The translations under genes and the position numbers were made by a program. Below are positions 8,128 through 64,000 of a stretch of DNA of 64,000 nt, piece by piece. The notes below the pieces were generated by a model. That model saw only the letters and a list, made by a program, of their open reading frames with translations. It was not told the DNA's origin and made no database searches. The stretch covers positions 1 through 64,000 of IMG/VR virus record IMGVR_UViG_3300042691_027241; one strand, written 5' to 3'. Every line of letters starts with the position of its first letter. Position 1 is the first letter of the stretch. The stretch is from a virus.

Positions 8128-8562
8128 TTAACTGCTTAATTTGCCTTTGATATGGGAGCCATGGACACGGACTTGTATATGTCCGTTATAATAATCATCT
8201 GATTCTAAGACTTGGTGTCGGAATTGTTCTCTTGCTTCAATATATGAACATTCAGCTTTTGATTTGCAGTAAAAAAGTATTTCTCTTGTAAAATTTTCTG
8301 GGCCAAGTGTTTGTATGTCTTTTTTAAGTTCGTCGTTTGAGCCATAATATAATTGCCAATCGCTATCTATTTTGCTTCTGATCTTCTTTTTCCGTTTGGT
8401 GCCGTTTTTAAGTTTTACTGTTTTTACTGTAGTTTTTGAAAATTTGGCCAGTTTTTTTCCTATGTACTTGCGCCCAGATACAGTATTTGTTATCAAATAC
8501 ACAAATCCCACGCAATCTTCAGGAAGTGATTCCACAAGAGTGGATTCGAATAGCCATGACAT
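8128..8562 (-). CDS. GIY-YIG-type endonuclease-like protein
   Basis: This 144-aa protein has the N-terminal GIY-YIG pattern: FVYLITN at 20-26 and KYIGKK at 32-37, then a Lys-rich insert (KNGTKRKKKIRSK), SDWQLYYGSN and a helix with EARE, where the catalytic Glu is expected. Family role: metal-dependent DNA cleavage, either in homing (Seg/I-Tev type) or repair. No DNA-binding extension is visible, and the protein is short compared with free-standing homing nucleases. It is the last gene of the leftward operon and borders the structured intergenic region. Close relatives are common as single genes in T4-like marine phages, which argues for a fixed phage function rather than a recent selfish insertion. 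That argument rests on recollection, not a search. Confidence 0.7.
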   Translation of the reverse strand: MSWLFESTLVESLPEDCVGFVYLITNTVSGRKYIGKKLAKFSKTTVKTVKLKNGTKRKKKIRSKIDSDWQLYYGSNDELKKDIQTLGPENFTREILFYCKSKAECSYIEAREQFRHQVLESDDYYNGHIQVRVHGSHIKGKLSS

Positions 8563-8568
8563 ACAGCA

Positions 8569-9156
8569 TTAGTTATGCTTGTAATCTAAATTACAATAAA
8601 ATGTTATTTCTTCAATACAAGTATTTGCTACCAATCCAGTGGCATACTTGATAAAAGTAGCTACATCTCCCAATAACATGCCATTTCCTGTCCAATTTGC
8701 TCTACTACGACTAAGATCTGTGTCCAAGCGATCAAGTGTAATTAAGGTAGTTTTAAATGGTACATAATTGGCCTTGAATGATGCCGTGCATTGTTTACTT
8801 GCATGTGACAGTGCTGCCTTGGCCACTCGGTAAGTTTCAAATCCAGGCTCACGGGCAACAATATTTTTTTCTCCGACACTACCTATATTAAAAATATATC
8901 CTGATTTACCAGCTTGTTTCCATTCGTCATACACTGCTTCAAGCACTTGTATCTGTCCAAAATTAGCCCAAGATTCTTGAGGAGGACCATCGAATGCATT
9001 GTTTACAAATATATCATAATTCAAACTTTGCTTTGCAATTTGGTCTACATTTTTAGTAATATCAAACCCCGATGATCTACTGGCACTGTCTGCGCCAAAT
9101 GCAGTGCATAAAAATTGTCCAAGCCCTCTGTTACCACCTGTAACTAACATCTTCAT
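8569..9156 (-). CDS. Short-chain dehydrogenase/reductase (SDR) family protein
   Basis: This 195-aa protein has the full SDR signature. The nucleotide-binding TGGNRGLG is at 6-13, NNA at 52-54, and the catalytic Ser93 (NIGSV), Tyr109 and Lys113 (YRVAK) are present. Family reaction: NAD(P)-dependent oxidation or reduction of an alcohol/carbonyl, or sugar epimerisation/dehydration. The substrate is unknown. At 195 aa it is shorter than a classical SDR (about 250), with a compact C-terminal substrate region. A strong GGAGGATC site precedes ATG 9156, and the start overlaps the TGA of the upstream radical SAM gene (ATGA), so translation is coupled. Context suggests it acts on the same unknown metabolite as the neighbouring radical SAM enzymes. 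Confidence 0.8.
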   Translation of the reverse strand: MKMLVTGGNRGLGQFLCTAFGADSASRSSGFDITKNVDQIAKQSLNYDIFVNNAFDGPPQESWANFGQIQVLEAVYDEWKQAGKSGYIFNIGSVGEKNIVAREPGFETYRVAKAALSHASKQCTASFKANYVPFKTTLITLDRLDTDLSRSRANWTGNGMLLGDVATFIKYATGLVANTCIEEITFYCNLDYKHN

Positions 9157-61918: not shown

Positions 61919-62786
61919 AATATTATGTATAGGTAATAATACTATCGAGACGGATTACCTGGCAAGGAAAACAGCATTAAAATTAGGTGTTCCATTTAAT
62001 GGAATTGTTAATATAACCAGTGTAGAACCAACAACTGGATTATATCATACCAGCATAGAAGATTTATCAATCAAAGGTATTAATAAAATTATTAACAAAT
62101 TTGATAGTATTAAAATATTTGAACAATCAGACTCTCAGGATCAAGAAGCATATTTTCAAAGAATGACACTAAAAAATCAAATTGAATTTCAAGATGCTGA
62201 TTACCCATATCCGAGTGAACCTCTGTTATTTGTTGGTTGCAGTCATACTGCCGGAACGGGACATACCACAGTTGATACAGTATATACAACATTGTTTTCG
62301 TCATTTTTAGATAAGAAATCAGTAATACGCAGTAACCCAGGCAAAGGCAATTGGTTGTTTGGGCAAATATTAAATCAATACAGATTAAAAAATACCTGTG
62401 TAGTGATACAATTCACAGACATTTTTAGAACACGATACTATAACGCTATGGGTACCCTTGTTGAAAAACAAGGAAAAGATTATAGTAAAAATGAAATAGA
62501 ATTTTTCTCAGAAGAGAAATTAACAAAAGATTTTTTAGAGTTAGTTAATGCTATTGTTATTAGATTGCGAGATGCTGATGCAAAATTTGTATTTTTCCAA
62601 TTATCACGTCAGCATGCAAACACTTGTTTAATTGATTATGAATTATCAAAATACAAAGAATTTTGTTGGATTCCTGATGTCCAACAAGATTTTGCTAATG
62701 ATGGCATTCACTTCGGAGTAAACAGTCATCGATTAATTGCAGATAAGTTATTTGAAACCTGGAACAAATTGTATGCCCAAAATTAA
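61905..62786 (+). CDS. SGNH-hydrolase-like protein (second of a pair)
   Basis: This 293-aa protein is counted from ATG 61905 (ATG 61890 in frame adds five residues). The first 100 residues are a separate alpha/beta part (HKILCIGNNTIETDYLARK). LLFVGCSHTAGTGH holds S113, NPGKGNW supplies a glycine block and NDGIHFGVNSHRL has D266 and H269. As in the 59718 gene, the motif is GCS rather than GDS. Two such proteins alternating with two twitch-type radical SAM proteins suggest paired steps. The start overlaps the previous gene, and the end overlaps the next. An ester-bond reaction is inferred. Confidence 0.65.
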   Translation: MHTHKILCIGNNTIETDYLARKTALKLGVPFNGIVNITSVEPTTGLYHTSIEDLSIKGINKIINKFDSIKIFEQSDSQDQEAYFQRMTLKNQIEFQDADYPYPSEPLLFVGCSHTAGTGHTTVDTVYTTLFSSFLDKKSVIRSNPGKGNWLFGQILNQYRLKNTCVVIQFTDIFRTRYYNAMGTLVEKQGKDYSKNEIEFFSEEKLTKDFLELVNAIVIRLRDADAKFVFFQLSRQHANTCLIDYELSKYKEFCWIPDVQQDFANDGIHFGVNSHRLIADKLFETWNKLYAQN

Positions 62787-64000
62787 TAACGAAACAGATT
62801 TAGAATACAAGCGCAGAGTGATAGACATCAAGTCAGAATCATTCTGTGGAGCCAAATGGTATAATGCCACTATTTGGTTAGGCTCGGGTATGACAACCAG
62901 TTGTCATCATCCATTGCCTCATAAAGTCGAAATAGCAGATGTTGAAGCCAATCCTAGGGCCTTACATAATACTCCTAAAAAGAAGTCAGAACGCTTGATG
63001 ATGCAATCAGGAGAAAGACCGAGTGGGTGTGAATACTGCTGGAAAATAGAGGACATTGGTCGAGACAATATCAGCGATAGAGTTTATAAAACAGTTTTAT
63101 TTTCAGATGAGGATTTAAACAATGCATTCAACGCAGACCCCAGCGAAGACTTCAATCTTCGCACTCTTGAAATCAGTTTTGATCGTACTTGTCAGTTTGC
63201 TTGCTCTTATTGCAATCCTGCATTCAGTAGTACTTGGGTCAAAGACATCAATAATAATGGGCCCTATGTGGACTTGGTGTCTGACGGTAGGAATCATTTT
63301 ACTCATAGCCATGACAGTTCGCAGCTTTTTAAATTTGGTGAAAATAACCCCTACATCGACGCCTTCTTTAAATGGTGGGAGTCAGACCTTCACAAAACAT
63401 TAACTGAGTTAAGAATTACGGGTGGAGAACCTCTTATGTCTGGGTACACTTGGCAACTGCTTGATTGGTTTAAAACTAATAAAGGTAAGAGTAAAACAAG
63501 ACTTGCAATCAATTCTAATTTGGGAACACAAGTTGATATCGATCGTTTATTTGATAGTGTGGATGCACCCATTGACCTATATACAAGTAATGAATCTGTT
63601 GGTTTACATGCAGAGTATATTAGAGATGGATTGGTTTGGGAGGATTGGGCTAATACTATAGAACTCATATGTGATAATTTTGCTGATTACAAATTGCGAG
63701 GATTACACATAATGTGTACTATAAATGCGCTGTCTCTGGAAAGCTTGACAGAATTTTTAGATTGTATCGTACAGTGGAAAACCTGTTATGGTAAAAATTA
63801 TCCTTTTTTTACATTAAATATATTACGATTTCCAAGTTTTCAAAGCCCTTTAGTTTTGCCAGACGAACTAAGAACAAAGTACAAAACTCAATTACAAAAT
63901 TGGTATAATAGTAACAAGACAAATAAGCTGATTCATGAAATGGAATTTAATCAATTACAAAGACTAATTGATTATTTAGATGTAGTAAAGACTCCACACT
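62773..64000 (+). CDS. Radical SAM protein with N-terminal Cys-rich twitch-like domain (second of a pair; C-terminus outside window)
   Basis: The frame from ATG 62773 is open to the window end (409 codons visible). C44, C86 and C89 are in the N-terminal domain (TSCHHPLPHK, ALHNTPKKKSERLMM, GCEYCWKIEDIG), the radical SAM motif is CQFACSYC (C140, C144, C147), and ITGGEPLMSG follows. It closely parallels the 60536 product, including FSSSW/FSSTW after the third Cys. The start overlaps the SGNH gene by 14 bases. It lies at the window edge, so its end and what follows are unknown. A shadow frame on the minus strand is not coding. Confidence 0.8.
   Translation, partial: MPKINNETDLEYKRRVIDIKSESFCGAKWYNATIWLGSGMTTSCHHPLPHKVEIADVEANPRALHNTPKKKSERLMMQSGERPSGCEYCWKIEDIGRDNISDRVYKTVLFSDEDLNNAFNADPSEDFNLRTLEISFDRTCQFACSYCNPAFSSTWVKDINNNGPYVDLVSDGRNHFTHSHDSSQLFKFGENNPYIDAFFKWWESDLHKTLTELRITGGEPLMSGYTWQLLDWFKTNKGKSKTRLAINSNLGTQVDIDRLFDSVDAPIDLYTSNESVGLHAEYIRDGLVWEDWANTIELICDNFADYKLRGLHIMCTINALSLESLTEFLDCIVQWKTCYGKNYPFFTLNILRFPSFQSPLVLPDELRTKYKTQLQNWYNSNKTNKLIHEMEFNQLQRLIDYLDVVKTPH

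Follow-up and report, generated by a model that had tools for sequence, protein, structure and literature searches.

Why would a tailed phage carry radical S-adenosylmethionine (SAM) genes in such number, and do these genes act together? The question is raised by a stretch of 64,000 nucleotides (the window), which covers positions 1-64000 of the linear, 75,562-base virus record IMGVR_UViG_3300042691_027241. An earlier note, made from the sequence of the window, had counted seven radical SAM genes in it, three in a left operon and four in a right one, the last being cut at 64000. The seven genes and their split were confirmed, yet the number is an undercount, as three more lie past the window edge at record positions 64125-65444, 65408-66649 and 68238-69548, bringing the record to ten. 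A high count of radical SAM genes has a precedent; what is new is the fixed order behind it. Five of the ten genes, named A to E, are old paralogs which have diverged widely and yet remain together in one unchanged order across a clade of phages.

Five old paralogs behind the gene count

All ten genes belong to the radical SAM superfamily (PF04055) by their CX3CX2C motif, which occurs in exactly 10 of the 58 predicted open reading frames (ORFs), where residue shuffles expect 0.085. The PF04055 cut-off was passed by nine of them, and the tenth (62737..64128, + strand, cut by the window) is carried by its match to the family NF033640, with 264.8 bits from the cut frame and a cut-off of 170. Position 8128, at which the earlier note had started its region, belongs to a SegE-type GIY-YIG endonuclease gene and not to a radical SAM gene.

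The count had been described as far above what is usual for a tailed phage, a claim that holds against cultured phages and fails within the record's own clade. With the same search, nine isolates gave 0 to 6 genes: none in PA5oct and S-PM2, one each in T4, RaK2, GAP32 and HTVC008M, four each in Atu_ph07 and Phosso, and six in Vibrio phage K566. Relatives picked by their portal protein (17, mostly fragments) had 0 to 11, and all 24 of the largest contigs carrying gene C had 7 to 17. The comparable counts in relatives that the earlier note had named as evidence against itself were therefore found inside the clade and not among the isolates. This census is conditioned on C, and so tells what accompanies C rather than how common C is. 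At least four pairs of contigs are nearly identical (G036/G047, G037/G042, G043/G053 and G048/G051), hence the independent cases number about 20. Moreover, a T4-like ocean genome with 12 radical SAM genes was reported in 2017 (PMC5332604). Since 7 to 17 genes occur in 24/24 C-carrying contigs and 12 had already been published, the high count on its own is a clade trait with precedent, and we rejected it as an oddity of this record. Supply of iron-sulfur (Fe-S) clusters by the host, also proposed by the earlier note, is not a general rule, because 13/24 cassette contigs, including 8 of the 9 longest, have their own gene for an Fe-S carrier of A type (PF01521), which was not found in this 75,562-base fragment.

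What lies behind the count is a set of five genes, all on the + strand: A (60536..61918), B (62737..64128), C (record 64125-65444), D (record 65408-66649) and E (record 68238-69548). All five fall into the N-twitch family NF033640 with 279-407 bits, above its curated cut-off of 170 (307.6 bits for A), although their mutual identity is only 19-31%. Each was retained at 51-89% identity in 25/25 phage contigs (64-89% for A), in the same order throughout. Mean identity to this record is 73% for A, 70% for B, 73% for C, 63% for D and 74% for E. Where it could be computed, the ratio of nonsynonymous to synonymous substitution rates (dN/dS) was 0.07 for A and 0.04 for GTx, the gene fixed upstream of A, compared to 0.03-0.04 for gp47, which indicates purifying selection. 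The selection assumed by the earlier note is thus real, at least for gene A, and orthologs are on average 63-74% identical. Among 134 phage N-twitch sequences the CX3CX2C motif is 100% conserved and four N-terminal cysteine columns, the set expected of an N-terminal auxiliary cluster, are 94-100% conserved; a GGEP motif is also common to A-E. For the genome scan a narrower alignment was used; a mixed A-E alignment of 30 sequences was too diverse. In four contigs (G040, G131, G132 and G133) C and D form a single ORF of 856-865 amino acids, which in G040 aligns to C over residues 12-432 and to D over residues 449-848.

The fixed order extends beyond the five genes. As far as each stretch reaches, all 25 phage contigs have the same backbone, which consists of a 104-amino-acid protein, GTy, GTz, a 118-amino-acid protein and GTx, followed by A, B, C, D, E, X384, two SGNH-like genes and a carbamoyltransferase; in some contigs single downstream genes are missing or diverged. 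In one contig (L310) B is missing from the ORF list, yet a profile search places it at G044:100707-101987. Extra genes near A-E (other radical SAM, GTf and SGNH-like genes) are confined to slots between GTx and A, A and B, B and C (once), C and D, and D and E.

Which phages are these? The window encodes the portal protein gp20, protease gp21, late sigma factor gp55, gp46/gp47 and SegE, in addition to baseplate hub and wedge proteins of T4 type (PHROG and Pfam matches), which places the record among T4-like phages. Its nearest isolates by portal are the jumbo phages PA5oct (51%), Phosso (50%) and Atu_ph07 (49%). As the portal is nearest to jumbo phages and cassette-carrying contigs reach 374 kb, the record is probably a piece of a larger genome. 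The clade with the cassette is one of uncultivated T4-like phages, often jumbo-sized, all of them metagenomic.

Bacterial counterparts of A-E

The five genes have counterparts on bacterial chromosomes. A tree was built from 174 N-twitch sequences, and for each of phage A-E the closest supported clade to bring in bacteria holds the Bacteriovoracaceae locus L108, with supports of 1.0 (A), 0.96 (B), 0.98 (C), 0.99 (D) and 1.0 (E). The clades of A, B and E contain L108 or other Bacteriovoracaceae only; those of C and D include other bacteria too. L108 is chromosomal, being flanked by rplU, rpmA and obgE on one side and lgt on the other, and its A-E orthologs are 32-55% identical to the phage proteins. 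A second Bacteriovoracaceae genome (L179) carries A and B at the equivalent chromosomal site, and A-type genes are found in 25/76 genomes of this family. Locus L293, which lies on a contig of 2.0 Mb, groups homologs of A, GTx (36%) and the left-operon gene r9153 (35%) with three GT2 glycosyltransferase genes (PF00535) and a flavoprotein weakly similar to UDP-galactopyranose mutase. A PMT_2 protein accompanies a similar arrangement in locus L288. The Bacteriovoracaceae clusters (L108, L179, L180, L288 and L293) resemble the phage cassette through the A-E orthologs of L108 and the GTx and r9153 homologs of L293, and differ from it in gene order and in having A, B and D in additional copies. Outside this family, SGNH hydrolases and a carbamoyltransferase belong to an N-twitch cluster of Chitinophagales, and in the single-cell marine virus AG-345-D19 an N-twitch gene has a carbamoyltransferase (52% identical) as its immediate neighbour.

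Several other occurrences were noted. A protein of about 300 amino acids, whose SDIDVT-like motif recalls Pol-beta-type nucleotidyltransferases, adjoins N-twitch genes in several Bacteriovoracaceae (L108:15718-16680, L179:9200-10117, L181:18391-19269, L291, L296 and L297); the L108 copy has no Pfam match. On a contig of a Bdellovibrionia metagenome-assembled genome (MAG; L287, G023:C85) a GTx homolog (42%) lies near an N-twitch gene and two radical SAM-like genes. The Elusimicrobia MAG bin-0981 (G019) gave 67 N-twitch radical SAM matches, many of which fall in tandem ORFs of 700-1,200 amino acids (L110, L111, L113-L116, L118, L120-L123 and L126). The loci assigned to Flavobacterium bin08 (L105) and to Rickettsiales MED606/MED657 (L106, L156/L161) were rejected as bacterial and read as misbinned phage contigs, L106 and L156 because their tail-fibre genes stand in phage order; at least ten radical SAM genes lie within 33 kb on the MED657 contig G031:C6. 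Among isolates, only Vibrio phages K566 and K567 have N-twitch relatives that are clear, if distant; in K566 (L104) three of its six radical SAM genes cluster at 161.5-166 kb.

Partners in the cassette and a second slot

The right cassette covers about 52.4-73.6 kb of the record and starts after the tail-fibre genes; between these and the baseplate genes lies an ORF of 4,730 amino acids (29964-44156). All cassette genes are on the + strand, each overlapping or touching the next apart from two gaps of about 70 bp; such packing resembles that of a translationally coupled operon. The first is the 104-amino-acid protein (52367..52681), conserved at 50-76% identity in 18 phage contigs. It is followed by GTy (52632..53465; 30-50% in 23 contigs), which is GT-A-like by an invariant D-x-D motif only, GTz (53458..54291; 41-64% in 23 contigs), possibly GT-A-like, the 118-amino-acid protein (54275..54631; 30-50% in 22 contigs) and GTx (54585..55541), GT-A-like with an invariant DGDN. 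GTx was found in 23 of the 24 large contigs with E below 1e-150, the remaining contig stopping short of the gene, and its mean identity to this record is 69%.

Variable genes fill the slot between GTx and A. The fourth radical SAM gene (55542..56570; PF04055, 55.1 bits) does have the SPASM domain proposed earlier (PF13186, 22.3 bits, cut-off 21.5); a viperin label for it was rejected (NF038283, 56.6 bits, cut-off 180). A GTf-type protein (56916..57857), glycosyltransferase-like by eye, has homologs (29-54%) occupying variable slots of relatives. The short fifth radical SAM gene (57847..58704; PF04055, 51.3 bits) has a cysteine-rich C-terminus, with seven cysteines in the last third, which makes its earlier description as minimal doubtful. 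A second GTf-type protein follows (58670..59725); its Pfam match to Med18 (25.4 bits, cut-off 21) was judged probably spurious. An SGNH-hydrolase-like gene (61890..62786) with a weak PF00657 match (E=0.011) separates A from B. Past the window, GTf (record 66642-67574) lies between D and E, and X384 (record 69502-70656), two SGNH-like genes (record 70634-71431 and 71501-72154) and a NodU/TobZ-type carbamoyltransferase (about 72120-73601) follow E. The last one passes both family cut-offs (PF02543, 126.2 bits; PF16861, 157.6 bits), with a mean identity of 65% to this record.

The left operon, with all its genes on the - strand, is a different matter. Radical SAM genes are located between gp55/gp47/gp46 and SegE in this record and in 8/8 relatives that cover the region, and they differ. 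All eight relatives share a gp46-adjacent radical SAM gene of about 320-370 amino acids (35-76% identity) that this record is without. In its place stand a short-chain dehydrogenase-like gene (8569..9156; PF00106, 27.0 bits, cut-off 26.6), the first radical SAM gene r9153 (9153..10367; PF04055, 39.2 bits; CNAACPQC), whose coding start is probably the ATG near residue 33, and two related radical SAM genes at 10773..12275 (60.7 bits) and 12272..13753 (34.3 bits; 27% identical to the former), each accompanied by a small protein (10261..10776 and 13731..14294). Because radical SAM genes are always present there and are not the same ones, the left operon is a separate, replaceable slot beside gp46/gp47, outside the A-E module. 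Genes of the r9153 type also turn up within the right cassette of relatives, at 32-35% identity.

The second gene (10773) is related to B12-dependent families, its best NCBIfam matches being PhpK and lipid B12-radical SAM enzymes, all far under cut-off. A B12-methyltransferase label was rejected for the pair (PF02310 at 17.2 bits against a cut-off of 32.1 in 12272, and no PF02310 match in 10773). Of the architectures listed in the earlier note, the N-terminal twitch (five genes in the record) and SPASM were thus borne out, and the B12 type reduces to family similarity. Neither small protein has a Pfam match; the one at 10261..10776 has homologs (27-31%) in the equivalent slot of relatives. By eye the two look alike and resemble a calcium-dependent carbohydrate-binding sandwich, with no family match.

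A candidate carbohydrate-tailoring pathway

What could such a cassette make? We consider, at a probability of about one half, that the right cluster, a core module of the clade, encodes a single pathway for tailoring a carbohydrate of the virion or the host surface. Radical chemistry is predicted for A-E. The five enzymes would work one after another or form a complex, each performing a different radical reaction such as C-H oxidation, epimerisation or deoxygenation, and would use the SAM cluster together with a four-cysteine N-terminal auxiliary cluster. The latter would resemble that of BtrN, a twitch radical SAM enzyme which carries a four-cysteine auxiliary cluster and oxidises an aminocyclitol by two electrons (PMC9012708). 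BtrN and other twitch enzymes share CX3CX2C and this cluster with A-E, whereas their twitch is C-terminal and the similarity is at superfamily level only. The four invariant cysteines make a BtrN-like electron-accepting role plausible. The substrate may be a sugar attached by the GT-A-like enzymes and tailored further by SGNH and carbamoyl enzymes, the product most likely being a glycan on tail fibres or the virion, or on the host envelope. Perhaps the variable-slot genes alter the structure of this glycan, diversifying the product. The arguments for a carbohydrate come from context: the GT2 genes around the homologs of A, GTx and r9153 in L293, the like arrangement of L288, the SGNH and carbamoyltransferase genes of the Chitinophagales cluster, the carbamoyltransferase of AG-345-D19 and the chemistry of BtrN. 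In favour of a joint pathway speak the fixed order, the purifying selection, the C-D fusion and the bacterial sister locus common to all five genes.

Several points weigh against this carbohydrate pathway. NF033640 is a subfamily name with no function attached, and the literature found describes no function or functional study for any of its N-twitch enzymes. Assignment of GTx, GTy and GTz as glycosyltransferases is weak, drawing on motifs and context. Pfam assigned none of GTx, GTy, GTz and GTf to a glycosyltransferase family (GTx reached Glyco_tranf_2_3 at E=0.02, below cut-off; GTz and the GTf at 56916..57857 had no Pfam match), and GTy had no significant match in Pfam or the Protein Data Bank (PDB). 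For the AlphaFold model of GTx (predicted local distance difference test, pLDDT, 65) the top Foldseek matches were nucleotidyltransferases and GT-A enzymes, with a best E of 0.023, which is not significant. The model of X384 is poor (pLDDT 60), and it gave no significant PDB match and no assignable function. The L108 bacterium has the radical SAM cohort and lacks GTx, so GTx is not needed everywhere. Moreover, the sequence does not separate a virion glycan from a host-surface glycan.

Instead of a carbohydrate, the target of A-E could be a protein or peptide: residues in the adjacent tail fibres, or a product resembling ribosomally synthesised and post-translationally modified peptides. Many SPASM and twitch radical SAM enzymes have targets of this kind. 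The cassette directly follows the tail-fibre genes, the sactisynthase SkfB is among the best PDB profile matches, and several NCBIfam relatives are peptide maturases. Nonetheless, a separate precursor gene would not fit into the cassette, in which no gap exceeds 70 bp; the two short conserved proteins, of 104 and 118 amino acids, are long for precursors, and bacterial homologs sit among GT2 genes. We regard a peptide target as unlikely. It is less probable still that the radical SAM genes were acquired independently of one another, as auxiliary genes with no joint pathway. The left slot and the variable slots do swap different radical SAM genes among relatives, and host-recognition regions of pelagimyophages differ by radical SAM cassettes (PMC7029224). 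This fits the variable genes, but not A-E, whose identity, order and number are kept in 25/25 contigs and which have one common bacterial sister locus and a C-D fusion.

Other phages are known to transfer carbamoyl and glycosyl groups to their DNA and to use radical SAM steps in modifying bases, and the left operon adjoins gp46/gp47; the enzymes of the cassette might accordingly act on phage bases. We find this very improbable, as the conserved set stands beside tail-fibre genes and not nucleotide metabolism, and the same cohort is chromosomal in bacteria, near surface-glycan-type genes. Anti-defence by viperin-like chemistry or SAM depletion is hardly credible, for although the prokaryotic viperin model is the top NCBIfam match of 55542, that match is far under its cut-off, A-E lie outside the viperin family, and consuming SAM does not need five conserved divergent enzymes.

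Returning to the carbohydrate pathway, the closest described systems share parts of it. The T4-like marine phage TARA_ERS488813_N000010, with its 12 radical SAM genes and an A-type Fe-S carrier (Nishimura 2017, PMC5332604), is a direct precedent for the count; compared by description only, the passages of that report on this genome give an Fe-S gene tally and describe no five-gene order or bacterial counterpart. The host-recognition cassette of pelagimyophages and cyanomyophages also combines tail fibres and glycosyltransferase genes with radical SAM cassettes, the latter as variable additions (PMC7029224), whereas here the five N-twitch genes are invariant and other genes vary around them. 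A further step would be to see in the five enzymes an obligate assembly line, common to a jumbo-phage clade and Bacteriovoracaceae, that builds an undescribed radical-modified glycan with which the phages decorate the virion or host surface and which they diversify through the variable slots; this we offer tentatively, as doubtful in its full form.

Phage radical SAM enzymes are usually listed singly as auxiliary genes; here they come as a set of five whose conservation across a widespread aquatic phage clade comes close to that of replication genes, and bacteria have an orthologous set. Thus NF033640, an unassigned family, becomes a pathway that has defined partners and can be tested. Should the glycan reading be true, phages would carry an oxygen-sensitive, multi-step radical chemistry that rebuilds a surface sugar, and the bacterial loci would offer a route to its product without culturing the phage.

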